Notes under the pieces: generated by a model
What the model was told of the DNA's origin: nothing
The model's input: only the letters and a program-made list of their open reading frames with translations
The model's database searches: none
From: Favolaschia claudopus
Lineage: Eukaryota; Basidiomycota; Agaricomycetes; Agaricales; Mycenaceae
NCBI GenBank assembly: GCA_037176885.1
Contig: JAWWNJ010000082.1
Coordinates: 1,116,001-1,180,000 of the forward strand
Direction: 5' to 3'
Length of the DNA stretch: 64,000 bases
Program-made: the position numbers and the translations under genes
Shown: piece by piece, positions 717 through 47,900 of the stretch
How positions within the stretch are numbered: position 1 is the first letter of the stretch
How the letters are laid out: each line of letters opens with the position of its first letter

Positions 717-1598
717 GGTACTTGATCACGTCTGGAAGTAATATATTTGCAGGTTTGCAGATCTTGTGGTATTGCTGCCTGTGTGCGCTGTGCGAGGAAC
801 AGGCTTTAGTCGAATCGCAAAGATAGAATGATACGTAAAACGCACTTGACTGTATATGGGGTCTGATTTTGTTGGAAAAATGTTACTTGCCTGAGCTGCT
901 CCACGAACCGAGTTGATGGTCTGAAAGAATCGAATGAATGAGTTCATCTGAAGATCGGTCAGCTTCGAGCCCAGACAATCAGAGGAAAGTTCTTCGCTTT
1001 CCCAACGGCCATTTGATAACGGGAATCAAGTTCAATCGTATATCGGCGAGCCTGGACTCTCCGTCGGAACAACAAGAGCAATTTGAATGAATGAATGAAG
1101 TCAAGGCTTGCACATTGAAGGGGTCGAGGATTCTCCACAGTTTCCAATAACTCTCGATTAGCGATGGGGGAAGTTCAAGGATTTGCGGTTAAGTTGGTCC
1201 CGGGTTGGGTGGTGGTGGTCAGGGAGAAAGGTCCATGGGAAATGTTGCCATCATAATGCGGATCATGATGCATGATGCATGATTCGTGGCTCTTGCTCCT
1301 AATTTCCTCCACATTTTTCGTCTGCGGAACGCGGTTCAAACTTCAGTGAGGCAGTCGGCGATCAGCGACACCCAGATTGAAGTATGTAACTCGAGTGTGC
1401 GCCGGTGAAAAAATATGCGTCGCAGCCCCAGATCACAGCGAGTCAGCGACCGTTTCGGTTGAGTCTTTCCGGATGCCTCATGGCCAGCCTCAACCGACTT
1501 CAGTTTAACTTTTGCCTGCGAAAAACATACGAAACCGGATGCCGGAATATCCTCACTGGTGGCATGACTTTCTGAAATTTTTCCTTCCCTCCATCATC
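717..1598. other. gene-free spacer
   Basis: Between the RBR gene and coiled-coil gene A. I see no coding pattern on either strand, only short tandem GAATGAATGAAT-like and CATGATGCATGATGCATGAT-like runs near 1081-1100 and 1262-1285. It presumably holds the 3' flank of the left gene and the promoter of the right one. Confidence 0.5.
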
Positions 1599-3715
1599 AT
1601 GGTTAAGGCAGAGTCGGAGAGCGATACAGGGAATGTTACGAGCAACATCTCATACTTGTGGCAGTATCTAGATAATTCGCGGGCCCGTGTCAGCCAGCTT
1701 GAGCAGGAGCTGTCCGAGTCGGTACGTGGACCTTTGTTCTTCCTCATTATCACTCATCGTATGGGCAGAGGCACTCCTCGCTAACTTCGACTGCTGGAGC
1801 CGGGAAGATTATGCAGCTCGAAGCCGACAAGATCGAGCTAGCTAGACAGGTTTCGGTCCTTGAGGATAAGCTTCGCGTGAAGGCTGAAAATAAGCCGGTG
1901 ATACTCGTCAAAAGGGAGGAAGGGGTGGAGGCGGTGAGGGGCCGCGTCTTGCATACCGTTTCTAATGCTGAGTTTCGGATTCCCTCCAGACTATCCGCCG
2001 CCCGCCGTCTGTACCTCGGGCGTCTCGCGAGCCCAACACGGTCCTCGCCGAGACGCGCGCCAAGCTCAAGGAGGAGCGCCAATGCCACGAAGAGTTGCGA
2101 AATGTGCGTCGTGTATGTCGTCTGATTCTCTTATTCATCTCGTTTTAATAGAAATATATCGAACTCGAAGGTCGGGTCAAAGAGGGGGAGGCAATTGCTG
2201 CTAAAGCTCTCCGAGCGGTATGGACTACGCACATCTTAGTCTTCTTTGCACCTGATTGATGCCCCATAACAGAGATTCGAAACGGAAGAGGTGAATGGTT
2301 TCATTTGAAATGAGAACGCGTTCGAATTCGGAATCTGATGACTGTAGGCGCTCAACGAAATGCGTTCCGAGATGGAGAAGCGTCTCAAGAATTTTGAGGC
2401 GGTCGACCAAGAAAGGAACCGTTTGGTGGGGGTTAGTTCCGATCTTGTTTCGATTGCCAGACGATTGATTGACCAAAACGTCCGATGTGTAGCATTCCGT
2501 AGAGCAGACCGATCGTGTCGACGCTCTCAAGGAGAAACTCTCAGGAATCAAGGCGGAGCTGAAGGCGGAAATCGAGGAAAAGGACGCCTTGAAGCAGGTG
2601 AGGGTCATGTCATACGTTGACTTCCTATAAATCCGACTTTTGGCAGACTCTTCAAGAGATGATCGATTTGGCGGAGGCTCTGGAAAGGGAGGTTCAAGAG
2701 GTATAGCTCAGGAAATGGAGTGCTGCGTCAATCACGAATGAAATCTCATCATCTAATAGCTACAAGCTGCTGAAAAGAATAGGAAGGAGTCGCCGGAGGT
2801 TAGCCGTTCTGATCTTCTTCGCGCATCCTCGGTGTCAATTAAATTTCTTCGCCAGATCGCTGAAGCGCTAGGGAAATACAAAGAATTCATGTATAAACTG
2901 CCTGGTCCCGAGAAACCTCCGCCATTCCATGTATCTCGATTAGAACCTGTGTGCGACTTTGATACCAATTTACATGGCTATCTGGCTCAGGTACGTGGCT
3001 CGATCCTGCGATTAGGGTGTATTCAAATGTATCCCGGTTTCCTAGGATCTCATAGGACAGAGGTAAGCCATGACATACATACCTGGCAATGCGCTAAGAT
3101 TTGTAACTTTTTCGAATTTAGGTTTCTCAACCATATCTTGTATCTTCCGAAGCGAGTCGTGGCTCTGTCCTATTCTAATTTCCATTACCTGGCTTATGGA
3201 CCCACTCACCTCTATGATCATGCCACAAGAACTTGGACTGAGGGCTCAGACCTTGCCGGTATCCATGGCGGTAGTCGCGAGCTCTTTGTCAAGCACAGAG
3301 ATTTCGTGGTATATGCGGGTACTTATAGATGCCACGACCTCCGCCCAGTATATTCTGACGGGACGAACTTGCCTGCTCACATTGTGCGTCTATTTCTTAT
3401 TTTTCCTGTTGGATGGAATTCAAACGCATCACATCCTAGTCCCCAGTAGAGATCGTCGAAGCTGCGCTTGTGGGCTGTCCACCCGATGTCAACCGCAAAC
3501 AAATTATCAAACAATGCTTTCCGGATGGAAAGGTCAAAGCTACAGCGACGGGACTGCAGTGTGTCGGGTTCAACACACAGCTCTATAATTCCTTGCGTCA
3601 CAAATTTCTCAACGATCGGAAGAACACCAAAGGCGCGCAGAAGCGCAAAACGGGTGGTGAAGATGGAGGAGGGAAGGGCGAGGGGCGTCCCATGAAAATT
3701 CACAAATCAGGGTGA
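1599..3715 (+). CDS. Coiled-coil protein A with conserved mushroom C-terminal domain (DUF6697-like)
   Basis: Twelve exons fit: 1599-1721, 1769-1933, 1990-2103, 2152-2217, 2273-2290, 2348-2431, 2493-2597, 2647-2700, 2760-2990, 3046-3062, 3122-3383, 3440-3715, all in phase, about 504 residues (488 if exon 2 starts at 1817). The N-terminal half is charged coiled coil spread over many small exons. The C-terminal third is globular (motifs YLPKRV, VYAGTYRCHDLR, LQCVGFNTQLY) and ends in a basic tail that may be a nuclear signal. Gene B at 56513-59574 is a paralog with the same last three junctions, including the 17-base exon. From memory this domain is the one annotated DUF6697 in mushroom proteomes; I could not check. 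Function unknown. Start chosen at the first ATG before the coiled coil; an in-frame ATG at 1539 is possible. Confidence 0.78.
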
Positions 3716-4494
3716 TCCTGCGGTCAGCTAATCGAACTTCGTTTGTTTCTATCATTTCCCTGTCCGTTTTCGCTCCATCGTACTACTCACTCGACGCTAT
3801 CATGGTTCAATTTGTCCGGCATTCCCATCTGCCAGAATAAGTACTACTTAGTTCATATGTCCTTGTCACGGATTCTTGTCTCTGACCAGTGGCATTCGTT
3901 GTGGAGACGATTTCTATGGGCTTGATACTATTGTGGCTCATATCGTCGCTTGGCTTTGGTCTATTAGCGCTGGATGCGCGAGGATGCGCGCGGGCTGAAT
4001 GTGCTTCTATCAACTCAAAAATATTCGTCGTGAGATCGCCACGCAGATCCTCTACGGACGTTGTTCCGCATCTTTTTTCGCTCTTGACACACGAGATGAC
4101 TCATGTCCAGCCTCTGTTTTGGTGGAAACTGCTGCGGCTTTCTATATAATGTGGTGACCGTTACGTCCCTTCATCGTGTTCCCTCCATACGAGTGTTGCT
4201 CCATATGCTTCAGGGCGCCTTTTTCTCCTACGGGTGTGAACCTCTGTACTGCATATTTTCGTATTTCCATCTGATCGCTGCATTCCCCTTCAAAATTTTG
4301 GATCAAAATTACCTGATATGTTGTAATTTGCGACACAGCGCGTTTCGGAAGGGAGGCCGGAAGACGCTGATCTCGGAGATAACCCTGTCCAAGAGTTTTC
4401 TTCGTCCCCGGCGTCGCGAGCTCTTGGGCGCTTATCGCGACGAGCTAACCCTTATGAACCCTACCTCCACGTACCCACCTCGCACTCCTCCCTC
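3716..4494. other. gene-free spacer
   Basis: No convincing exon on either strand. Short open frames (for example 3889-4149) are of random composition. It separates gene A from the NLR-like gene and should include the latter's promoter. Confidence 0.45.
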
Positions 4495-17848: not shown

Positions 17849-20800
17849 TCACAATCCACCCAGCCGCTCATTCACCGCATCAACCTCCTTCATCTGCAAA
17901 CTACGCACAAACAACGGACAAGCCTCCTTCCACATACTCTCTGCCTGCTTATAATCCCCTCGCCCAAACATGATATCTCCAATCCCAATCATACACCTAG
18001 CCCTGAGCAAGTGTATATCAATTTGAGTTCCTCCCTCAAATGCAACCTGAAAAAGAGAAAGTGCACTCTCATCGTCTGCCAATTGAACAAAGGCATCTGC
18101 AAGACGCTGAAGGGCATTCAAAGTGCCAACAACATCATCCATCTTCCTAACAAATGCAAATGAAACTACAGCCCAGTTGAATGTCTCAGTCACATTATAC
18201 AACTTGTGCCTTGAATCACTAATTGCTGCTAAACATAGACTGTGAATATCTGGACGATATTCCGGGCTTTCCGCTAAACAACAGAGAAATCTTGAACGAG
18301 CGTCATCAATGTTTCCTTCAAGGAGGTCCAACAGTCCGCTCATGAGCAGAAACACGGAAATAACAGTCTTGTCATTATCCAGAGCTTTATACACTCTTTC
18401 CGATTTATTGAGATTTTCCTGGATATTTTCTACCGGACCCCCTGTAACAAGGTCGGTGTGGGCAAGGCTAATCAAAGCATTTGCATAAAATGGCCCAGAG
18501 GATATAAGAGATATCATCTCCTGATAGAGCTGCCCAGCCTCCAAGTACTCGCTTTTATTGAAATGTACCTCAGCCCGTACATTGAGGATTTCCAGATATC
18601 GGTCAGATTTCTGCATTCCAAACACAGTGAGGATCTCATTTGCCTCTATGCATAGCCGCAGCGTTTGTGGCAAATTTCCCAATTGGAGTTGAACCCAAGC
18701 TTCTGAGACAAGCAAGTCACATTGAGAAAGGTTTATCGTTGACCCAATCTTGGCCAGACAGTTGTAAGCCATGTTGACCACTTTGAGCTGTCTGTTACGA
18801 TCTCCCCACATTTCAGCTACAATGATTTCTGTATCGAAGCATAAAAGCTGAAGCTCTGTGTTGTCTGTTTGCTCTACCAAGTCCAAGGCCAGTTTGTTGT
18901 ACTCTGTTGCTTTTTGGCGATCAATAGAGTTTGATTTAATATAATATCATGCAACGGTGTTGTAGAATGTAGCAACTATGGTAAGGGATGAGTCAAAGAC
19001 AGGAAACTTGCTGGAGTATACTCGAAGCTCACCTTGATCAATAGGGTATGTATTTCCAGCCTTGAAATATTCTAGACCTTCCTGGATCCAAACCTTTGGA
19101 TTCTCACCAAGCCAGAATTTAGGGTTGCAAAGCAATCTACGTCCATACTTCAAGCGCAACTCCACATCCTCCGTGATTTTCACAAGATGTGGAAGCCTCT
19201 GGACAAGAAGTGTAGACCCTTGCATCATAATTTCAGAAAAAATGTCAAGGACTGTAATGCTGGTTCCAATAGCCACCAATGTTGACTTGTTCTCTGTTAT
19301 CATGCCTTCAAGCAAGAGGCTATTAACATTGCCCAAGTTCCCTACCAATTCTGTGATAACTGCCCGATTGCCAGCAAACAGTTGTCTTCTAGTCGAAAGC
19401 CAGACATCAAGCAAGTCCTGGAAGTATACCCGTAGTGAGGCTGCAAGAACCTGTGATGGTGGATGGACTCGATGAATGAATTCACGGATAGGGCTCAAGG
19501 CTCTGAGGCGCCCTTCAGGGTCTCTGTATGCAAGGGACATGCGAAGCAGGAAAGATTGACATTGGCCCATATTTGGAATGCTGACTTTGCTAGCCTGAAG
19601 ATCTTTGTCTTTGATTCCATCTGGTAATAGAGATAGAAGTGAAAGTAAATCCTGAGCTGATGGAAAGGATTTGAATTGAGGAGTATGGATAGACAGGGTG
19701 ATAGACTTTTCGAGACTTGACCCTTTGTCATGTCCAAGAGAAAGCAAGGTGAAGTTTTCAATCTGCCAGCGCTCCAAGGTGGTGGCATAGCCCTCGAAAG
19801 AAGCCACATTTGCCAGTAAGGTGATAGCCAAAGGATGATTGTCGGATAGGTCCAGCAATTGATCCAATGCAGACTCTTCTCCAATTTCTGATTCATCAGC
19901 AATGTCAAGAAATATTTGACGTGAAGCTGTAGAAGAAAGTGGCTCTAGAGGCAAAAGAAATGGTCGACTCCACTTCACTTTTGCTGGTCGCTCTGTGCCT
20001 CGCATGGTCACCTGCAGTGTTTTGGTTAGGACAGAAAAACAGAAAGACATAAAAGTTCTGACCAGCAAACCAACACCTGGAATATCAGCCAATGAAGACA
20101 AAAGTTCCTCAACTTCCCCTCTGGACTCTGGTACTTCCCAAGGTGTCTCCAGATTGTCCAGAACAATTAGACTTGAATTACATTGCTGAAGGTGCCGGAT
20201 GACCATTCTCTGTAGCTGCCTTGAGGGCTCAAGCTGTAGATGTAGGCCGAGAGTTGTAATCATTTCTGAGCAAGTGCTAGATGACTCGCATGAAATGAAA
20301 TGTTGATTCTTGTATTTCTCTAGAATAGCAGGGAAATGCAGCAAGGCCATGGCCAGAGTAGTCTTTCCAATACCACCAGGGCCCAATATCACAGCTCTTG
20401 GATTGTCAGAAAGAAGAGCTGACACAAGCAAGTTGAATTCAGCCTCCCGTCCATGGAAAAGCTTTGGGGATGCAGGCAGCAGAGAAATAGAGCCTGAGCT
20501 GTAAACACTTTGCTTAATACTCATCAGATCAATGACTGAATGCCCTTACCTTGTGTTAAGCGAGCTGTGCTTTGCCTGGTTAATATTAGGTATGTTTCAA
20601 TGAGGTTTGAGTATTGAAGACTGCATGCGCACCAGAGATTTATCATCAAATGAAATACTTTGAGCTGTGATGAGTTCCAGCATTGCTTGGTGCCGGGTTT
20701 CCAAATCGACATGAAATTGAACAAGGTCAGTTGTAGCTTCAACTATGGTTTCCACCTTTCAAAGGATGAATTTAATCTTTGCCCGCAACAGCTGAGAATC

Positions 20801-30177: not shown

Positions 30178-33100
30178 CAAGGGGTGTCCGATCTCTGGAT
30201 CACCCAATAAAACCCACGACCTACCCCCCCCAAAAGAGGCAATGATCATCATCAATCATCAGCCATCGGAGTTGCGATCAACGTGCCACTCAACGCGTCC
30301 ATCTCTTCTTTGTGCGCGCCCTGGCGCGCATTAACTCGCTCGAGCCGCTCCACCGACCTCTATAGCTCACTAGCTCACTCTGCAAACAGTATGGGACACT
30401 AACTCTGTACATCCTGCACATACAACTTCGCAAAACAATGCCTCTTACTTGGCCAATTCATCTTCGTTCTCGACGTCCTATAATTCGTTCTCGGTTGTAT
30501 CTAGTCATGAAAATGAGCCATGGAAAGAAACCGGCGACTGGCATATAGGAACACGTCATGTTCTGTGTCCCCGATGTCTTCAGTATGTCAACCATGCATT
30601 CGATCCGGGGACGAGGCCTATGGATACCCATTGGACTAGCCGGCGCTGCCAAGACCTTGCTAGTGAGTCTCAGTTTCTCTTTCGCGTGTTTCTACCTGTC
30701 TTGACGCGTTGTAGACAACGTTAACGCGAGAACATCGCGTCCCCGATTCGACAATATACCTGTTGCCGATGATATACCCAGCACCCGCGCCGAGTGTTCT
30801 GGCGCGTATTTTCAGTGGACTGTTGGATCGCTGTACAGAACCTATCCATTTGTCATTCACGACCCAACATCTCGTCACCAGCCTCGCTATACCCTTCTGT
30901 CGGCAGATTTCGTTGCCTCTGTCATCCGAATACGCTCGGTCAAGTGCTGTGGATATGTATCCCAGCCGGGCTGCTGCAGTGAATGTGATGACTTAGATGG
31001 AGCGGTCGATGTTGTCGAGAGGTGGTCTCAGCAATCATTCGGCAAGAAATCTATCGACAGGCTCAGTCACGATCAATTAGCCTTGAAGCTCAAGGCACTA
31101 GCTCAGCAGCTGGCTTCCGAGCAGGTTAAGGTATGTAGTCCAATCCTACCATGTTTCAATTGAACTGAAGATAACCTGCTTAGAGAAAGAACCGTCAAAC
31201 ATCATTGAAGGCTGCTCGGAAGCGGTTAGGACATTACCGCGAGTTGTTTAATATTGTATCCCTTAACGAGGTGCCTGGCCTCTCACGGCTGTTCTCTACT
31301 GCGAAAAAAGAGGGATGGAGTCCCAAAAAAACAGCTGAACACTGTCTACTTGCAGTCGAAGGCAAATACCATCCCCGGAACTATACCGAGTTTGACCGAG
31401 AACTTGCGACCCTCATTTACGAGTTGGGAGGCGGGGCGGCTCTATATGCATTGAACAAGTCCCCAATCATGCTTCCGTCACGCCAGACCATTGCCGAAAC
31501 CCGTCGCGAGCTGAATTTACGCATCACCGTGGGCAACGTCAAAGTCTCGGACATCATGGAAAACATCGAGGTCTTGTTCGGTGATGGAGACACCACAGAC
31601 TCGGGCCTAGTCCTACACTCGCTCTTGCAGGACGAGATTGCAGGGGATGGACGGCCGTGCTACCTCGAAGATACAGACGAAATAGGTGGTTTATGCGAGC
31701 ATGCAACAAACCGTCTGAAGACCTTCAAAATGGGCACTGACTTGTCGTGCGCTGAGGAAGCGGTGAAAGCCGTCCGATCGGGAGAAATACATGTCGGAAA
31801 GGAATTCAGTGTTGCCGCCTTCTCTAGACATTCCGAGCACAACTATGGGGCCAAGCCGGTCCTTATAATGCCTACCTGCAAGAAAGGCTCCTGGGAATCT
31901 TCCGCGCAGCTCCTGCAGAAATTGATACAGGCTTGGAAGCTCTCACCATTCGGAGAAGCCAAACACGGTCCATTGGTGTCGATAGCATCTGATGGTGATG
32001 GGCGACGGCGGGCGGCGCTGTACTTGATTTGCATGCACCGACATTTATCGAAGGACGACCCTATATACCAATTTTTATCCAATTTGCCTGGTCTGAATTT
32101 GTACACCGGCAATGGCGGATTAACTATGGATTTCGACTACAAGCACCTATTCAAACGTATGCACAACATTCATTTCATCTTTTTCCCCGCGCTAATGATA
32201 TCTGTATAGGACTTTGCACGCTTCTCTGCTCGCTTGCGGGGATTCTCGTCAATGATGTAGTAATCAACAAGACCCTTATTGCCCAATGGCTCGAAAGAAT
32301 CCCCGGATATGACTGGTCTGACGAGAGCATACACGCTCTTTTACAGCCCAAGGATTCGCAAGATGTTGGGCGGTCTATTAAACTTCTATGTCTCATATCC
32401 GATCTACGAGGACTCGACACTTCTGAATTCACCCCTTCCGAAAAAATCACGCATCGCGCACTGAGCCTCCTCGGCGAGATGTTCGATGCCCTCGTTGATC
32501 CATTCATTAATCCAACACTTTCACTTTCGGAACAAATGATTTCCCTCGTAAAATTTGCGCACATTTCTTGCGCACTGTTTATAAAGCACGGCGGTGACTT
32601 CTTTTCGCATCAGCTATATGGCGACCTTCAATGCATGGTGAAAAACATGATATTCAAAATTGCGCACTCCAAAGTGCTAAACCCTATGCTAAAAGTCTTT
32701 CTCTGCCTATTGGGAGATGACGTCTTGGAAATTCTCTTTGGCCGATCCAGGATGATCGGCGGACACTCGCCCAACCATGCTGTTGACGAATTGCGTCAGC
32801 GTATCTGTTCTGCTCTCCGCATGGACAAGATCTTCCAAAAATATCCTCATCTAGAGCGCCACGCTCGACGCCTTCGTTTAGTTCGCGCGAGGGATGTTGA
32901 TCATCTTTCTCCTCGCAACTGGAAAGGCGACCTCACTGCAGCCTCATGTGATATTCAAGAATGTTACACTACTGGAGTTGCTCACGCTAAGGCAGTACTC
33001 GCGAAATATGGATGCGACATTGATTTCGCCGCCCGTTTCTCAAAAGAGGGATTTGACTTGATGAGGCCTAATGGTGGAAAATACCCGGGGCTTTCAAAAG

Positions 33101-35007
33101 AAGTTGACAGGTCTCTCGGAGATGTATTGGATTCTGCAGGAACAGAATCGCTGGCTTCCGCTGCCGCCAATGTCAATGATAGTTTGGTGCCCGCGGATAT
33201 TCTTGCCTACAATGCCGAGCTGGCCCTTGCGAGCGAACAGGCCGCGCACACCGAGTCCAATGGGCATAGCCTTTGGATTGACCTGACTGAAGACGGACAT
33301 AAAAAAGCACATAAAAAAACAATCCTTCGAACCCTAATGGACCCAACTTTCGACATCAACGACAACAAAAGCCACGACCGACTTCTCCGGGTTCGATACT
33401 ACTCCATTGGCGGGGATAGCTGGGATCGGACAGCCTCGACAGTCTACTCCAAATCCACCTCCGATGACCATTTGCTCAAGATCCAAGGACTTTTTGCGTC
33501 CTTGGTCTGTTTCAATGGCTCGAAGATTTCCCTGGCCATTCTGCAGTGCACCGGTATTAAGATTGTTAATACCCATCCCGTTACCTACCTGGAGGCAGCG
33601 CCGAGCGCCGAAATCTCTCTCCCCGACACTCGCTATGAAATAACGGGACAAATATTATCTCTCGTTCCATTTGATGAGTCCAACAATTCCTCTGGAAGGA
33701 TTTCCTGGGCTTGGATTGCCCAGTACGTCGCATTTGACTCCGCGAAAACCAAACAGGCAAGCGCCGCGGATCTTCCGTCTCGTATGCACCATCTCAGTGT
33801 GACTGTGGATGGGCGTCTAGCCTTGCCATTGAAGTCGTCCGACCTCAAGCAATTGACACTGGAGGAGATCTTGAATATACCGCGGCCGGCAGACAAAGAG
33901 TCGGAGAAGACATGGGTATTTTCTAATGAACAGCTGGAGGTGTTCGGTCGTATACTCTGTGAAAGGGTGACGGAGGATGCCGTGCGAATGAAAATTCCAG
34001 TATATGGTGCTGTCAAAGACGGCAGATATCCATATGAAGCTACTATTCAGGATGGTTAGTGTCTCTTTCGAGTCAATGGATATCCGACTGAATGATTCCG
34101 TCAGCTACGACTCAAACGGTAGAAAAGGTTTCGCATTGCTTCAATTCCATCGTTGCACCTGCGCCGAAAGATGGCCGACGCCCATGCGGTGTTTGCCTTA
34201 AGAATGTCGCTGGCTCGGAGCGTCAGAACCATATGGGAAGACATATCTTACTCTCGCAACGAGGGGTAATTGAGCCTGAGATTGTGATGCAGGTCGATCG
34301 ATGACATCCTCCTCGTTCTAACAGGCACTTAATTCATTGACAGGTCGCAAAAGACTACCCCTGCGGATTTTGCGGGAAGGAGATGTCGGAGAATGGATGC
34401 AGCATCAGTATAGCCAGCGGTAAAAAAGCCAGCTCATCGTGCTCGGAGGGATACCCGTTCCAGGTCAGCGCAGCATTGAAGAGCAGCACAACAAAACCAA
34501 GCACAAATGCGCCGTTGAAATGCAGTCTCTGCACGGAGACTCACTGGAAGTATAACATGCCCAAGCACCTCCAAGACCGGCACCCATCTTGGAAGGTTTC
34601 TGTGCCCCTGCCTGACCGCAATATTCTCGCTTCCGCCATCTCAATTTCACAGGAAGAAGAAGCCCGGATGAAGATACCACATTCACAACCGGAAAACGTC
34701 GGACAGAACTTGAAGCGAGGCTTAGAAGACCACACAGTCACTCCAAGCCGTACACGAGTGGCGAAATCGGCGCGTTCGGGAGCTGCAGCTGGTAGCAGAC
34801 AGCAGGTGGTCAACAGAAGCGAGGTTGGAATGGCCGTAGACGTTTTTGTATAGTGTATATAGGCTTTGCGACAAGCAGGGAGGAGAAAAGGACTGCAGAC
34901 TGCGCGGTCCGGGCTCCGGGACGTGTTGTTCCGTGGATCCGACATCGATCATTGATCTCGCGTATTTACAGATCAAATTGAACGATCCAGAGATCGGTCA
35001 CCTCTTG
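30178..35007 (+). mobile_element. Complete P-superfamily-like DNA transposon (TIRs, 8-bp TSD)
   Basis: The left end CAAGGGGTGTCCGATCTCTG (30178 on) and the right end, read as reverse complement from 35007, CAAGAGGTGACCGATCTCTG, match at 22 of the first 24 bases, then weakly to about 31. GCCAAAAT directly flanks both ends (30170-30177 and 35008-35015), a perfect 8-bp target duplication. The 4830-base element holds one plus-strand gene whose motifs fit a P-element/THAP9-type transposase. An intact gene, matching ends and identical duplication copies argue for a recent insertion. Confidence 0.9.
30449..34853 (+). CDS. P-superfamily-like transposase with zinc-binding termini
   Basis: The first coding exon ends near 30661; its true start is unclear because the frame is open from 30374 without an ATG, so a small upstream exon is likely. 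Then exons 30715-31131, 31184-32156, 32210-34054, 34105-34290 and one from about 34345 to 34853 fit in phase. The N-terminus has a possible zinc knuckle (CPRC...HWTSRRC). RNase H-like landmarks: YLEDTDEIGGLCEH (31660 on), VSIASDGDGRRRAAL (31978 on), a DYKHLFKRL segment like the HLxKxxRN part of P transposases, and DDVLEILFGRSRMIGGHSPN (about 32710) like the D-x-LE-x-x-F-x-x-x-R-x-x-GG region carrying the last acidic residue. The C-terminus has C2H2-like fingers (CGVC...H...H; CSLC...H...H). It would cut and paste the surrounding element. The family is common, and usually unnamed, in mushroom proteomes. Confidence 0.78.
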
Positions 35008-38317: not shown

Positions 38318-38904
38318 GCTCCGGGAATATTGATCTGGATATTTCGCGCCCGATCGGCTCACCGTCGTTATCATCTCGGTGTAAAACGGACTCTAATTCA
38401 TTTAGTGATTCACGGACACATGGACTCACGCCGCCATCTATGTATTTCCGCCTGCTGTAGCCACTCTTCATGAGGCCGAGGCACACTGACTCACTGTGTG
38501 CTTCGTCACTCTTCTTTATATAGTCTTCTTGCTGTTGTTGGTCTCATAGTACGTTGCAAAAAGAAGTTCACATACCATTTCAACCTTCGCGAATCGCGAA
38601 TATCAATCGGCGTTGTATTTTCAGAAAATCTTCCTCTTGCGGCTGATATGCGAACAAGAGACTAAATTTATCTTGGTGAATTAGTCTCCAACTCCTCAGC
38701 TCGAATAAAAGACGTGGTGCTTCGCGACGCGACGTTGAATTCTCATTGCGGCTATTTCTGATCGGAATTTGCCGCAGCGGCCTTCCACGTGAATGCCCGC
38801 CTCTTGTTCTCCTCCTTCACAGTCTCGCTTGCGTCTGAGTTGCGAAAGGTGTAGCACAGCAGCCTAAATTCCAAAGTGTCTGCCTCTCAAGCATTTGACT
38901 TCTA
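38318..38904. other. spacer left of the second transposon
   Basis: 3' flank of the Kre9-like gene and the insertion site. The left copy of the duplicated target (TTCTA/CTTCTAG) is at 38899-38905. No gene seen. Confidence 0.5.
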
Positions 38905-38954
38905 GTGGGGACCGGCACCGCCGTGGACGAATCCGGCATGTTTGCCCGTGTTTG
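38905..38954. repeat. left terminal inverted repeat of the second transposon
   Basis: Pairs with 42785-42834; 46 of 50 positions match, the four differences being at repeat positions 25, 41, 42 and 44. Confidence 0.9.
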
Positions 38955-39426
38955 GTTGGCAGGAGCCCTTGGTTCCGGTTTTCAAATCCCTAAGGCTTTT
39001 TCCACAGGCGTTGTACCTCTAAAATATGGCTGAGACTTTTGTAGTAAACAAGCACGAAAATGGTCTCCCTAAGCCAAATTCAATTTTTTTCGGCTCTTGG
39101 TATGTAGGGATCGCGTCTCCGCCGCGAACAGGATCTTCCGAGAGTAAATCAACCGAATTATATAAAATTCTCTTAGGCAGGCTGTAGCCATGTATCATAC
39201 CTACAAGTTTTACAGCGAAAGTTAGACGCTATGTGACGCAGGGAAAAAGCTTTAGGCTGTCGATTGAAGACATCAAACGCGCTATGTCACAAGTGTGACA
39301 CTCATTGATTTCCCAGTCGCGTCCTATCGCAACTCATTTTCTGCTTGCAATACTCCTCCCTAGGACAGGATTCTTGGCTCATAACATACATGCAGCGACT
39401 GACTAGGCTCACCGACGCTTTCCCGC

Positions 39427-42400
39427 ATGCCTCGGGTCCCTAAATCGACTTCTAGACTTCATGACGCTGCTCGACAGGCCCGGGAGGCGAAGAAGCTTCT
39501 TTCGGATGATAGTGACTGCGAGAACGTTCCTCCCGACAACCCTTCACCTCCAGCAAACCCACCGTCACGTAAAAAGAAGACCCTGTCAGCGCAACTAGCG
39601 GAAAGCAATGAACGGATCACGGAGCTTGAAGGAACGGTCACGAACCTAGAGGCAGCACTCGGACGACTACAGAACGAGTTCGACGAGCTACAAAGACAAT
39701 ATACTGCACTGGCTAGCAAGAACGAGGTCACGACAATTGCACACAACGCTCTGAAGAATCTGAAAAGGAAAGCCGATGTTACCTTCACGGAGGAGCTGCG
39801 GAAGAAGAACAAACGGATAAAGAGGCTGGAGAAGGAGCGCACCACCCAAACAGAGACTTCTTGCACTGAGCTAACGAAACTCGACGACACTCTCGACGCC
39901 CATACTCAGAAAATAGCCGAATTGGGACGGGATCTTGCGTCTGCGCTCAACGAACTGGTACTGCGGGATAAAACTATCAAGATACTTCAGGACACTGTAA
40001 AGACAAAACAGTCCACTCTCACCGTGACGCGGAAACACCTCTACACTTCTCAGAAGAAGAACCATCGTCTGACTGTGGCGCTGGGGCAGATACGAAGTAA
40101 ATACAAGGACCTTCTTACCTGGAATCCAACCCTCCATGGACAATTCACCACTGCTGCTCGAGAGCTAGCTCGTCGTCTAACGCAGGCAGGATGTGCTGCC
40201 GAGAAGATTGCATACGCTGTGGAGAGCTGTGCGAGCGCATTTGGGATCAGAATCTCACGCAGTTTCATGAGTGCAAGGACAGTAGCGCGAGCGATCGACG
40301 AAGGTGGGAAGTATGGCGAGATCCAGTTGGCGCGGGAGATTATGGATGCTCCAGGTGCAAGATCTGAAAAACTGTATGCTCAACCGCTAACTTGATTCAG
40401 GTTTTGTCGCGAGTTCCGATGGTACCTCGTTGCGCGGTCTCACCATTGAGTCGCGCCACATCACTCTTCTCACCCCGAGCTATGAACCCGGAGTCGATGA
40501 CGCAGACCAGTCCACTTGGACCCATCGAACACGTTTCCTGGAGGTTGCCCCCGCTCTTGACCATACTGCGCAGCGTCAATTCGAAGGAGAGTCGGAAGCT
40601 GCTGCTCGGGTGGCGACTGTATACAGCAACAGTCCTTTGGCAGCCAAAGAGCGACGGATAATGGACAAGAATGATTATTGGCGGAAGAAGATGGGGGAGA
40701 TGAAGGATCATGCGGCGGATGGGAAGAAAGGATTCAAAATCTCGGCGGACTATAAGAAGGAAGTCATTGTCCGCGACATGGGAAGAGAAGCTCTAGACGA
40801 CGAAGATCTCACCACAGGTCAAATACTCCTCAGCGTTCTCGACGTTAAAGATGCAGACTTGCTCGCTGTAGGCAGAATTTCGACCCAACAATTGGCTGAA
40901 TTGTACGTCCTATTCACAGTTTATCCGCGACTTATTCTTCTCAGGTCGACTGAGGCTCGATCCCAACTTGCTGAGGCGGCGCTTGAGCTGAAGATTGGCC
41001 AGGAGAAATTCGACTTGCTTTCGCCGGAGGAACAACAAAACAAATGCACTCATATATTCGGAGGATGCTGCTGTCACAAGGATCTAAACGTCGTCAAATA
41101 TGGCTACCTGTCGATTCAACGCGCTTACGATGAATACGGACTGCCGCCTCCCCTTCTCCTCCCCAACAAAGCTCACGCGTCCACAATCCGAGTTGGAGCT
41201 GGCGACAACGACAGCGAGGCGGCGGTACGGAACGCCATAGAATCGAGCACTTCCGGCGCCATCAAGCTGCTACAACTCATCGGCTCACTCCTTCAGCACA
41301 GGGATAAAGAGCGAGGCTATCAAGATAAGTGTGGAATATTCATGCGAGAACACAAGATGGAGCTCTTCGATCTGGACGAACCTAGCAGATTCCCCGACGT
41401 CTCGAATAACCGATATGGCGCCTACACTTATGCAGCTGCAGAAGTGGTATGTTTCCACACTTTGATTCATCAACTCATCCACGAGACCCTGGACGGCAAA
41501 ACCAATTCTGGCAAAGCCAACCATGTCGAACAGAATGTCCTCAATGGGCTGGCGTGTCCGGTTACAATGGCGGAGATGGTCGCCTTGGCGCTGTATGGAG
41601 CATCGGTTTCGTGGCCGTACATGGCCCAGGTCCGCACCACGAAGGAGTCTCCTGTGAACTTGCTGTCGCTAACTGATCTGCATCGCAAACTGCCTATTTT
41701 TTGCTCCAACATCGCCGCCCACCCTTACCTTCTCTTGGACCCAACCGCCTCGCCAGACCAGCTCACAATCGACGGACGTCCTTTTGGCAACAAATTGCTC
41801 TTCTGGTCCATTGATCAACTCCGTCCCCTCCCGAATCTCTTCCTCGTCATCTCTCGGATGTTCTCTGGCTGCGAGACTGGCTGGATCAGATTCACTCCCG
41901 AGTTTCACATCGGAGGCACTTTCGACACACTCACCCCTTGGCAGCGTGCTTTACTTCACATCCCGTCTACAAACGATCGCAATGAAGGCGCTCTTGGGTC
42001 GAATACATCGTTCTCACGGGATAAACCCAACTCCAGCCCTCAGTCTTTCTCCAATCGCACCCGAGCGGAACGCAACAACACCGAAGCTTTCATCAAAAAA
42101 CACTGTGATGCAGCAGTCGAGAAATTTGTGATGCGGGAAGTGCGAAAGGATGGCAAGTTGAGGCTGCGCACGAAATTCAGGAAGGCTTTCTTGGCTTTCC
42201 AGCGAGACAAAGCGGAGAAGGGGCAGAAACGACGAGAGAAAGCGGCAGCAAAAAAGAAGGCCACCGAATTCCGGCTAGCGACGACCCACTTGGAGCTCAA
42301 CGTTGATGCCATCCAAGCGATGACTTCGGTTAAATTGAAGGGGCAACTGGAGGTCTATCGAGATGTGTTGAAGGACGAGATTTTGAAGAAGAAACTGTGG

Positions 42401-42635
42401 AAGGACATGGCGACAGTTGCGGTGCGCCGAACTTTGGTACTTGAAGCTCGAGCCCGCGAATTGGCTCGCCGACGGTGAGTACTACGCTGCCGGCGACACC
42501 TGCTGACATATCATCCACAGAGAAAATACCCTTGTAGTTCCCGCTAACCCCTCTGAACCGTCAGAAGATTCTATGGTCATCGATGAGTACGGATATTGTG
42601 AAGGTGATGATGCTGAATGGGAGGACATGAACTAA
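39427..42635 (+). CDS. Putative transposase of a large unnamed mushroom family (1024 aa)
   Basis: Four exons in phase: 39427-40354, 40401-40902, 40945-42474, 42521-42635; 1024 residues, no break. The start is the first ATG of the frame. Residues 50-235 are coiled coil (Leu/Glu/Lys heptads), then a helix-turn-helix-like segment (TQAGCAAEKIAYAVESC...SFMSARTVARAI) that may bind DNA. The core has landmarks suggestive of an RNase H-like transposase: VASSDGTSLRG (first Asp), FGGCCCHKDLN (a C-x2-H...N like the C/D(2)H motif of hAT and relatives), DVSNNRYGAYTYAAAEV (position of the usual TRWxS motif) and STNDRNEGALGS (candidate last Glu). A basic helical region and an acidic C-terminus close the chain. 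It is the only gene between matching inverted repeats, hence the role. Intron 40903-40944 is in frame and stop-free. Catalytic residue assignment is tentative. Confidence 0.8.
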
Positions 42636-42784
42636 CTGATTACCAACTTACGATATTAATTCAAAAATTGGGGAGCTGATAGATATTGGTATTATAAACA
42701 TATTCTACAGCGACAGCTAGATGTATAAATGGATGTGGAAGCCGGAATGCGAGGGAACATGGGTTTCGAGATGCTAGGCGGGAG

Positions 42785-42834
42785 CAAACAAGTACAAACA
42801 TGCCGGATTAGTCCACGGCGGTGCCGGTCCCCAC
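42785..42834. repeat. right terminal inverted repeat of the second transposon
   Basis: Reverse complement of the left repeat at 38905-38954 with four differences; followed at once by the target copy TTCTAG. Confidence 0.9.
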
Positions 42835-42839
42835 TTCTA

Positions 42840-44971
42840 GCGTGGCTTCCTTCGACGTCAAACATGAACTGAACTTGAATGAGGCTGCAATTGAGTCCGA
42901 CCCGATTGCCAGGGCTGTTTTCTGCCAGCTCTAAGACTAGACTGGAGCTACAACTCGGAAACCTCCGTCGGCCAACTGGCTGCCTGCTTCCAGATCAAGG
43001 TTTCGCGGCGCTCGTATCCTCTCCTTCTACGCCAAAGACGTGAACCACTTGATGATCTGGGTTTTTGGAGACGTCCCGTCTTCTTCGACCTCAGGCTTAT
43101 CCGCTAACTTCAAACGAAAGTAGGTACCAAATGGTAAGGCCCGTCGATCAGAACGATATTCTTCCTTGAGAAGAGATTAAATGTCTCACAATTTGCGGAG
43201 TTGAGAACTTACTCTTGGACGTCTCCGGCAACTACACGGCGGGCGTGAGTTGTTTCTATCTGACGTATACAACCACTGCTTGCCCTTATCGCCGTAGAGC
43301 TTCTCCGAAATTTCTTCTCTTCTCCCGGATCTAGAGAAATGTTGGTATGATCGGGACGCTTACCAGCGGGAAAGTTTTGTGGTGTTGCCTGCTACTTCCA
43401 CCGAGAGGCTCGTAACCGGCGGTAGTTGCTTTCGGGCGTTAAACTTCCTTCAGTTTTCAGATCCACACCGCAGTTTCCCCAAGACAAACATGGCTATGCT
43501 CAGTTCTCCAGCGCCAAACGAACGAAGAACACCAATTCAAGCGTACGATCAGGGTATTGAATTCAGCACCGTTGTATGCAGGATGGTGACGGTCATTCGA
43601 GTCTAACCCGGGATAGCCAACCTAGATCAGCCCCGGTCAGAATCAGAAAAGCACAGTGATTAAGGAAAGAAATACCATTCTGGTCAGTTATCAATCTGAA
43701 CTGCTGACAGGTCAACAACACTTTGTTCACCACCTCAACAGATAGATGTAACCCAAATCTGCAGGTACGCGGCGATCAGACCATTCATTCAACGGTAAAG
43801 AACTCAACATGGCCGCTTCTTACGATGGCACGCGATAGGAGGTCCAGACGGTGGACTGGTCTAGAGCACGGCAAAATTTCGCTCTTCCGAGCGCTGCGCT
43901 GAATAAAAAAGTCCTATACATCGGCGCGGGTATCACCTCCTCAAGTTTCCGTCTCAAATCCGGCTGGGGTAGCAAGTGGAGTGGGAGGAATGTAAACCGG
44001 TCGAAATCGCGTCTGGACTCTGTGCACAAGGTCGCGGCTAACAGTCAGAAGGCGCGGGGCGGATAGCTTCATAATTTACCCCGCACTCGCTTCACTTGCT
44101 TCGGGGTCAAACACAGAACGTTTTGCGTCCGAAGACCAAACAACCCTCACTGTCGTGCAACCCGGCCTCTATTGCGAGAAAGTATTATAAAGAACGATTG
44201 CCGCCGGAGGCCCAGACCGGCTCAAGCAGTTTCTATGTCAGAGCCAAAAGACAGCCGACTCCAAACCGACAACCAAAGAACCACTCCGATGGTAATACAC
44301 GGAAAAAGGTACAGCTGGTTCTATCCAAGAATACAACGATTTTTCATTTCGGTGGCAACAAAAATAATACTACTACAACGATCGCCGTTCATCTGACCCA
44401 ACCTTCCTCCCGTCCAATTCTACCCAACCAACGGCGTTCGGTGTCGTGTCAATACCATACCATTATATACGTATATGCGTGTGCAAGTAACAAAGATAGA
44501 TGCGCAGGGGACCAACAGCAATGCAAAGCGAGGACAAGAGAGGTAGGTAGTGTGAGAGATAGCACAAACAAAAGCAGTGAGGAGTCTAATGTGGGCGAAC
44601 AGATAGGTGATACAACGTGCGTGTGCGTAAGATGCGAGACAGACAGACAGACAGACAGACAGATTGCGGATATATGAATATATGAGGGATGCGAGGCCCA
44701 ATTCCAAGTCGAAATAAAAACGTCCAAGGAAAGATGCCAAAAACAAGATGGATGAGATAGATGTACAGTTTTGTGCTTGCGTTCGTGAGTGCGTGAGTCC
44801 GTCGGCGGTCGTCGGCGGATTTTGAAGTTGTAGGTGAGGGAAGAAGTCAGTCGATTCGTCCGTGTGTGTGAGACTTGAATTTTGATTTTCATATTCTGGA
44901 GGCCGAGGAAGACACGAAGGGCGATCGTGGTGCCGCATAAGGTCGAGGGGAGTGGGCGAGGGGAGCGGATT
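42840..44971. other. gene-poor spacer
   Basis: No gene recognised on either strand. The right part is the 3' flank of the large minus-strand F-box gene and holds a GACA microsatellite. Confidence 0.4.
44638..44662. repeat. (GACA)6 microsatellite
   Basis: Six uninterrupted GACA units in the 3' flank of the F-box gene. Probably length-variable. Confidence 0.85.
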
Positions 44972-47900
44972 CTAATCTTCTCCCCTCGCGAAGCACACAC
45001 TCCCGCCCCAACTCGGCGCCAACACATCCTGGGCGGCCATCTGCCACGTCCCCTCGAACGTGTCCCGGCCAACGATATTTCCAGAGATGAAGTACGTCGC
45101 GAGACCCAGGGTCCGGTCACGCTGTGGGACGGACAAGGCAGTCAGCATTTAAATTTACGAGAGCGTAAGAGATAAGAGAGGAAAGGGAAAATGACGAAGG
45201 GAAAATGGACCCACCGGCCGCATTATGAGCCCGATCAGACCGTCCCAGGGCCTCACACGCCCGGAGTATTCGTAGTGGTGCCAGGCCATCCCGTGTCGCG
45301 GGTCCGTCTATAGTATATGGTCAGCGTCACTGGACAAAGGATATGGGACGGCGTGGGTGAAGATAGGTGAAAAGATGCCACGGACGACAGTGAGACGAAA
45401 AGAGGAACAACGTTCACAGGCGGCATATCCCCACCGGCATTGCGAGAGGTTGAGACTGCCCGACAGAGAATCGAGTGCAAGAAAGAAAGACCAAGCGAGG
45501 GGGTTCAATGAGACCTAACCCTAGGACGAGAGTCCGTTTGAGAAACCAGAAACAGGGACGCATAGGGAAAGAGAAAGAGACAAAGAGATAGACACGAAAC
45601 AGGTTGACGAACGAGAATGAATGGGGAACGTACCTCGCCGCTGAAAATGACGTCCTGCACACCGTCGCATTCCCACTCAGGATGTGCTTGCCATTCAGCC
45701 CAAGAGTCATTTGACGAGAAGCTCTCCGAGGAGGGCGATTGTTGAGAGGAAGACAAAGGTTCGGAGCCAGCAGGGTAGCCACTGGAGGCACGACTGGAGG
45801 CACGTTCCCTCGACTGGCTGGAGTCGGAGTAGCTTGTGTATTCCTCCTCCTCTTGCATTTGAGACTCGCCCGAGCCAGACCACTCTTCATCTTGTGTCTG
45901 TACCGACTCCCGAGAACCAGAGCCAGATCCGAAGCCACTCGAATACGCTCCCCCCGGCTCCACTTCCTCTTGTTCCCACTCATCGTCATCCCCGCCACTG
46001 ACATACTCTCCACACCTCTCCCTATCATGCGCCGGATGCTCCCCCGCCTCCCCTCCCGCCTCGTAGTACACATACGCCTTCTCCTCTTCTCTCCTCCCCC
46101 ACCCGAAGGCACTATCCCCACCACGACCGGCCTGCGGCACCCGAACCTCCAGCTTCCCCCCTCCGACACCAACGACGCGCGTCCCTGTGGGAAGCCACGC
46201 TGTACGCAGCCCTTCGTCCGCGGTTACGCTGTCGGGTGGGGGGGCTGGTGCGGGGTCGGTGCCGTGGAAGCTGGAATGCGAGATGGTAAGTGTAATGACG
46301 AGAACGAATGATAGCAAGAAGGAAGAAGAGACGACTGACCTCCAATGCTCCCGAATGCGTAGGTACACTGGCCGTGCTGCAGCAACAAAGTCATCTCGTG
46401 GAAGCCCGCCTTCGGGGAACGCGCCGCCAGGGGTGTCGATGAGAGCGTTGTATGCCAGCTCAGAGGGCATCTGGCGATGGTGGTTAGTAGGTAGTTCGTT
46501 GAGGAGAATGATGGTGGCCAATAGACGAGGACATAGCGACGAAAAGGGACAAGTAATGATAGACGGAAGAACAGAGAGCGAGGAAGCGCATTGTGTCTGA
46601 ATAGTGAAAAGTGCAAAAGATGGTCGGAAGAGGAGAAAGAAGAACGGGGGACGAATGCAATGCGGGTACACACACGAAAGAAATAGGCAAGAGAACACAA
46701 GAAAGTACAAGACACGACCACGAAAGAGCCAAGAAGCACAGAAAAACAAAAGCAAAACACGAAAGCAAGGAAAGTCAAAACCAAGTAATCCCTTCCTGAA
46801 ACTCACCAACATCGTCCCCGCCCACAACCCCGCAAAGCTCCCCAACGCATACACCCGTCCAATCCGACCCGGTCTCGTCACCGACATCGCCCTGTCCTGC
46901 GTCTGCGGGGAAGCTGCATGGACATCCGCCCTTCCCTTGCCCTTGCCGTTCCCGTTCCCACTCGACAACGACGAAGCACCAGCACCACGAGAAGAAGCCC
47001 GAGAGGACCCATGAAAGCCCCCGTCCTCATACGAACAACATAATTTCGCCCTCCACCGATGCGTCGCCCATCGATCGGCTCCTCTCCTTCTCTTCTCCTT
47101 CCCCGCACCACCATACTCCTCATCATCATCCAGCCCCGGATCCACACCCATCTCCCCTGCCTCCCACTCCCTCTCCACCTCCCGCTCAACCCCGCTCCCC
47201 TCCGCATACGTCCGCCCCACAGGCATCGCCATCGCCACGCCCGCACCACTTCCGCTCGCTCCTCCTCCTCCTCCTCCTCCAACCCCATCTCCAGCTCCGC
47301 CCGCACTTGCGCTTCCCTCGCCCGAACCTTGCGACGAGGAGGAAGCAGCCGCGTCTTGCGCTTGCGAGGAATAACTGCTACTCGCCAATGAGGCACCTCC
47401 ATCCTCAGAAGAAGAAGTAAAAACGGCAGCATCATCCGCTGCGGCCGCCGCAGGCAACGACAACTGCCGCTCGAACCTGACTACGGGTCTTGCGTTCTTC
47501 TCGTGGATGTCTTCTTGTGTGGGCCCGATGGGGGGTGGGCCGGTGCCGCCTGTGCGAGAAGGGAGAAAATCGTGTTAGTAAGAAATCAAGAACCGCATTC
47601 GTAAGAATAACGAATCGGGGAGGGGGAGTAGGAGAGTGAAATGGAGATCGAAGAGCGAGAAACGCGAGTGATACTCACCCCCCGCCAAAAACCGCCTCCC
47701 CGCCTCCTCCCGATCCCTCGGCAAATGCGGCGGCACACCCATCCTCGCCCCCGCCTGCATCCGCGCGAAAAACAGCAACCGCGCAGGCGGGGCCGCAAGG
47801 AGTCGGCTGTGCGCTTGAGCTTGCTTTCTGCTTGCTCGTATTCTTCCGTCTTCATGTCCGCCGATGCTGCTTGACGAGAATCCTGGGCTTATCGAACCTC

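Follow-up and report, generated by a model that had tools for sequence, protein, structure and literature searches.

A complete, recently active DNA transposon of Favolaschia claudopus whose single gene probably encodes a distant relative of the hAT transposases

The window analyzed here, a stretch of 64,000 nucleotides from a Favolaschia claudopus contig, contains a complete, recently active cut-and-paste DNA transposon. We give a probability of about 0.86 to the reading that this is an autonomous element whose single gene encodes an RNase H-fold (D, D, E) transposase deeply diverged from its hAT relatives. This reading is based on complete ends flanked by 7-bp target-site duplications, on empty sites at paralogous positions, and on copies that are nearly identical yet sit at different places in the genome. 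Short derivatives share the ends of the full element, the gene has a low dN/dS, and the predicted fold and arrangement of residues agree with those of Hermes. The coordinates of the element and the duplications flanking its relatives are collected in Table 1.

Table 1. Features of the window element and target-site duplications of family members in the same genome
Feature	Position	Strand	Description
Complete transposon	38906..42833	+	3928 bp, TGGGGACC...GGTCCCCA
Left terminal inverted repeat	38906..38954	+	
Right terminal inverted repeat	42785..42833	-	
Target-site duplication, left copy	38899..38905	no strand	CTTCTAG; single copy in the empty paralogous site L027
Target-site duplication, right copy	42834..42840	no strand	CTTCTAG
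Transposase gene, four exons	39427..42635	+	exons 39427-40354, 40401-40902, 40945-42474, 42521-42635; 1024 aa plus stop
N-terminal coiled-coil region	39427..40116	+	about residues 1-230; boundary approximate
Proposed catalytic Asp 1, D316	40418..40420	+	SSDGT; 55/57 sequences; first strand of RNase H sheet in model
Proposed catalytic Asp 2, D412	40706..40708	+	DHAAD; 59/60 sequences; end of strand 4 in model
CxxH motif, C518-H521	41066..41077	+	CCCHKDLN; C 60/60, H 59/60; basis of genome pattern
Proposed catalytic Glu, E824	41984..41986	+	NDxNEG; 58/59 sequences
Duplication, window copy			CTTCTAG, exact 7 bp
Duplication, L010			TTTATCG, exact 7 bp
Duplication, L011			CAAGTAC, exact 7 bp
Duplication, L016			TATGTAT, exact 7 bp
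Duplication, L017			TTTGCTA, exact 7 bp
Duplication, L020			CTGTCTC, exact 7 bp; 903-bp derivative
Duplication, L021			CTATTAT, exact 7 bp; 903-bp derivative
Duplication, C11			CTGTTAT, exact 7 bp; 51-bp ends
Duplication, C43			GAAGGTG, exact 7 bp; 20-bp ends
Duplication, C21			AGGTCTG, exact 7 bp; 14-bp ends
Duplication, C65			CTTTGAA, exact 7 bp; 49-bp ends
Duplication, C54			flanks CTTACAG vs CTTAAG, inexact; alignment judged by eye

Ends, duplication length and genomic copies

The two ends of the element match as inverted repeats over 51 nt at 92% identity (38904-38954 with 42785-42835), in line with the repeats of about 50 bp (46/50) reported in a first-pass annotation of the sequence. 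The outer AG/CT of this match is part of the flanking duplication, and the element is therefore delimited as in Table 1. That annotation had offered either TTCTA or CTTCTAG as the duplication; the 7-bp form stands and the 5-bp form does not, the length being fixed by other copies in the genome and by the empty site L027. A 3-bp duplication (TCT) is likewise excluded by the other copies. Academ, a superfamily with duplications of 3-4 bp, was the first candidate and was dropped once those copies had fixed the length at 7 bp. With its ends, its 7-bp duplication and an intact gene, the element is the complete DNA transposon that had been proposed.

Copies were sought in the 264.6-Mb assembly that contains the window. 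The end sequence of the window element was found at 25 places, and seven of the eight independent elements in this set with both ends have an exact 7-bp duplication; the flanks of L012 and its duplicate L013 show none. L020 and L021, of 903 bp each, keep the ends of the window element and have no match to the transposase protein. A 27-base pattern from the CxxH region gave 50 genome matches against 0 for its reversed control, and the loci returned (30 of the 50) match family proteins in every case; the flanks of five diverged copies, picked as better preserved, were taken from these 30. A 17-base end pattern, TGRGRAYSGGCACCGCC, occurs at 57 places in the genome against 1 in the control, and of all seven further end pairs in this list six have exact 7-bp duplications (two of them with common flanks). 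The flanks of the C84 pair, from the same list, carry no direct duplication.

Overall, among paired ends, 16 of the 19 independent elements have a 7-bp duplication, so the comparison of flanks that the first-pass annotation had recommended settles the length. The ends of the family read TGNG...CNCA, and the subfamilies differ in end length, some having about 50 bp and others 14-20 bp. A consistent lack of inverted repeats in other family members had been named as grounds for doubt; instead, diverged members lie between inverted ends with 7-bp duplications. For the diverged subfamily L018/L019 the 3′ end was not found within the stretch fetched, and L038 contains no more than a short remnant of a distant relative.

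Several copies have a more complex structure. The C84 derivative (G000:C84:559972-560797) is flanked by nearly inverted copies (TTCTTAGG before, CTAAGAAG after) with no direct repeat, which could reflect aberrant transposition or chance. L016 is broken at 1627-2250 by ~0.6 kb and L015 at 1511-3764 by ~2.3 kb, and the matching pieces overlap by 9 and 5 bp, as expected if elements making 9- and 5-bp duplications, respectively, had inserted into them. The end-truncated copies L009/L014/L015 have one common flank, as do L022-L025, so the copies within each set have probably multiplied inside a larger repeat or by segmental duplication.

Empty sites, age and selection

The sequence made by joining the flanks of the window copy has two genomic matches (83-84%), and one of these, L027, carries a single uninterrupted CTTCTAG and is thus an empty site. 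For the L010 site, the paralogue L029 is identical over 80 bases spanning the junction; seven unoccupied relatives of the L017 site are not clean, with small indels beside the junction. L027 and L029 are paralogous rather than allelic, so the empty-site comparison suggested earlier was made between paralogous sites of the same genome, where the one CTTCTAG of L027 confirms the ends as insertion boundaries.

L010 and L011 have the same 3928-base sequence, each differs from the window copy at 1 position, and the three occupy unrelated insertion sites. Judged from these near-identical sequences, the element may still be active today. The dN/dS of the window gene is 0.064 against L016 (690 codons, with the in-frame intron 2 counted in) and 0.087 against L017 (438 codons), both partners being worn copies.

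Transposase gene and protein family

Intron 2 of the gene is 42 nt long and in frame, and its retention would add 14 residues to the protein. It is supported by 41 of 43 aligned homologues, which have no extra residue at this position; the other two have 6 and 2, and none has 14. Support for the last exon comes from 16 of 44 alignment rows, the window row counted, in which a similar acidic tail is present. The alignment of homologues thus upholds the earlier model of an intact four-exon gene of 1024 codons at both points.

The first-pass annotation had placed the protein in a family with no named domain, and Pfam scans of the window protein and 18 homologues agree. The window protein gave nothing above curated cut-offs, its weak matches being mostly to coiled coils. 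The 18 homologues at E up to 0.1 matched 14 families, each in a single member and none of them a transposase family, and at E up to 1 homologues matched 33 families (25 of them listed). Precomputed Pfam annotation is empty for 109/109 homologues listed. Members of the P superfamily carry THAP/P domains, and the 19 family proteins gave no Pfam match to P-element/THAP domains or to the KDZ transposase domain. An N-terminal coiled coil is indicated by weak profile matches to window residues 48-193, by coiled-coil PDB chains that match the N-terminal part of the family profile, and by long N-terminal helices in both structure models. The PDB sequence search with the family profile returned mainly such coiled-coil matches to the N-terminal part (best 60 of 147 matches listed), and the same search with the family protein P0003 returned no match.

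Two homology searches gave 79 and 45 matches, together 109 proteins, among which the closest relatives of the window transposase are from Mycena. The organism names (P0079 and P0109 carry none) include many Mycena species, Roridomyces, Hypsizygus, Gymnopus, Schizophyllum, Lentinula, Hygrophoropsis and others, all genera that we take to be Agaricomycetes. Each search scored only the ~8000 candidates with the most shared words, and the true spread of the family may therefore be wider.

Elsewhere in the window, adjacent ORFs at 17852-20545 (-) with matches to an NB-ARC/NACHT-type ATPase and to tetratricopeptides resemble a fungal NLR-type gene, and two long ORFs at 31999-34056 (+; 686 aa) and 45508-47574 (-; 689 aa) have no Pfam match at E up to 0.001.

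Predicted fold and catalytic residues

The AlphaFold model of P0003, built with a 60-sequence alignment, has a pLDDT of 91.9 and a pTM of 0.82. It runs through strands 1-3, a helix, strand 4 ending in DHAAD and a helical insert. Strand 5, which carries CCxHKDLN, comes next, then a large insertion of helices and finally a helix that contains NDxNEG. D125, D221 and E629 of P0003 correspond to window D316, D412 and E824, and the spacing of E824 to the end of the Hermes alignment equals that of Hermes E572 within one residue. Other acidic positions of the family are equally conserved (E101, E113, E135, D225, D330, E476, E601 and E662), so the assignment of the triad is based on the fold. Hermes was the first fold-search match for both models; P-element, RAG and KDZ-like chains are absent among the matches listed, which excludes nothing. 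On these models, the protein is predicted to be an RNase H-fold transposase with D, D and E as catalytic residues, the outcome that the first-pass annotation had sought in a comparison with RNase H-like transposases. Its central claim, that an unnamed mushroom protein family belongs to mobile DNA, is borne out by this predicted fold and by the diverged members that lie between inverted ends with 7-bp duplications in the same genome.

We also considered that the gene might be carried as a passenger while a different transposase moves the ends. An element can do without the gene in cis, since the short derivatives L020 and L021 have no protein match, but the predicted transposase fold, the conserved acidic residues and the position of each diverged member inside ends of the same pattern make a passenger scarcely credible.

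Relation to hAT

In the predicted models the catalytic region has the overall hAT layout, as the Hermes match indicates. The hAT-type CxxH follows the second Asp, as in Table 1, but behind a helical insert. At the position of the hAT RW motif, whose equivalence to Hermes TRW was judged by eye, R is present in 56/60 sequences and the next residue is Y (43) or F (17), never W. The hAT C-terminal dimerization domain (PF05699) was found in 0/19 family proteins against 2/2 control hAT proteins, and the BED zinc finger in 0/19 against 2/2 controls at E up to 0.01, one control falling below the curated cut-off. For want of these two domains we do not file the family as a member of hAT; it is probably a distant relative, and the element probably works like hAT.

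Profile comparison by hhalign, with the family set against 23 hAT proteins and 120 shuffles as control, places the similarity mainly in the N half. Over the whole length or core the probability was low (7, 10 and 19%), and the trimmed core scored 37.5, above all 120 shuffles (maximum 27.5). In local alignment the N half reached a probability of 61-63% with scores of 33.3 and 33.7, each reached by 0/120 shuffles, and the C half scored 18.2 and 19.9, reached by 6/120 and 1/120. In what was probably global mode, the N half scored 18.8 against a maximum of 8.7 in 100 shuffles, the whole core 1.0 (shuffle mean 2.6), and the C half 1.9 (mean 2.3). The N-half alignment takes in the first Asp with the segment that precedes it and the HT motif, and their order agrees with the fold; as the comparison was made with the hAT profile alone, this similarity may be partly common to other RNase H transposases.

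A tentative alternative, to which we give distinctly less weight, places the family in a superfamily of its own within the C/DxxH group (hAT, P, MuDR, Kolobok, Dada) and outside the hAT branch, with the Hermes match reflecting a common core plus helical insertion. Such a separate superfamily is suggested by the undetected hAT C-terminal domain and BED finger and by a C half without clear hAT similarity, and is also favored by the distinctive TGNG...CNCA ends and by the helical insert of ~95 residues that separates the second Asp from CxxH. Against it, the N-half profile resembles hAT, the sole profile compared, even in the stretch before the first Asp, and Hermes is the first match of both models. 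The earlier suggestion that the superfamily may be new thus loses its argument from duplication length and has in its favor the grounds given here. No title or abstract opening listed in searches of an open-access library describes this lineage, which may already be catalogued elsewhere, for instance in Repbase or Dfam.

Proposed mechanism and significance

For the preferred reading, a diverged hAT relative, the transposase would bind the ~50-bp ends, and D316, D412 and E824 would hold the metal ions with which the element is cut out. In Hermes excision a hairpin forms on the flanking DNA, and by analogy excision here would probably follow this hAT route. The ends would then be joined to target strands at a 7-bp stagger. 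The N-terminal coiled coil probably joins subunits, and the short derivatives are probably mobilized in trans.

By extension, the family's many unnamed proteins in Agaricomycetes are probably transposases of such elements, and proteins that databases list as hypothetical would thereby gain a function and an explanation for their copy number. For repeat annotation, a fungal transposon lineage that has no Pfam model can be recognized by a profile and by its end signature. With copies this similar the element may still be active, and its mechanism is open to direct testing, including what replaces the hAT C-terminal domain in a diverged hAT-like transposase.

Comparison with known systems

The first-pass annotation had held that the duplication length rules out hAT, P and KDZ. 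This argument fails: duplications of 7 bp are reported for hAT7 and Kyakuja (PMC12730594) and for Galileo (PMC2775673), and duplications of 6-7 bp for Dada (PMC3706591). Membership in KDZ, P or Dada is suggested by these lengths and is highly improbable given that no transposase Pfam match was found in 19 proteins. Kyakuja, a KDZ lineage, likewise occurs in mushrooms and has 7-bp duplications in Laccaria, but its elements have CA...TG ends without inverted repeats (PMC12730594), whereas the window family has inverted ends and no KDZ Pfam match. Galileo, of the P superfamily, resembles it in the 7-bp duplication (PMC2775673) and in inverted ends that can be long. Dada resembles it in duplication length, in the C/DxxH motif and in its occurrence in Laccaria. 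It differs by insertion in small RNA genes (for Dada with clear termini), by zinc fingers (N-terminal CCCC, C-terminal CCHC) and by the lack of terminal inverted repeats in Dada-U6 and Dada-U1 (PMC3706591). The window element has 49-bp ends, its protein has no CxxC pair, and 11 occupied sites gave no tRNA or Rfam match (ARAGORN with the bacterial code, by which split or intron-bearing genes can be missed).

Within hAT, the groups hAT5, hAT6 and hAT7 are recognized, and hAT7 of rust fungi is fungal and has 7-bp duplications like the mushroom family (PMC12730594). An ordinary element of the hAT7 kind would account for the duplication and the hAT-like predicted fold, yet is very unlikely: hAT7 was assigned to hAT on transposase similarity and groups with hAT lineages of the Ac and Tam3 type (PMC12730594), whereas the mushroom family has no hAT Pfam match. 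The F. claudopus genome contains 150 scored PF05699 matches (489 candidates), and ordinary hAT elements are thus present alongside this lineage, but none of the 150 lies <6 kb from the family's CxxH-pattern or end-pattern places, compared by eye.

Hermes, as a representative of hAT, has an 8-bp duplication, whereas the mushroom family has 7 bp and ends in TGNG...CNCA, and neither a hAT C-terminal domain nor a BED finger is detectable in its proteins. Relative to Hermes, the family has in addition a ~95-residue insert before CxxH, an N-terminal coiled coil and ~200 residues after the catalytic Glu.
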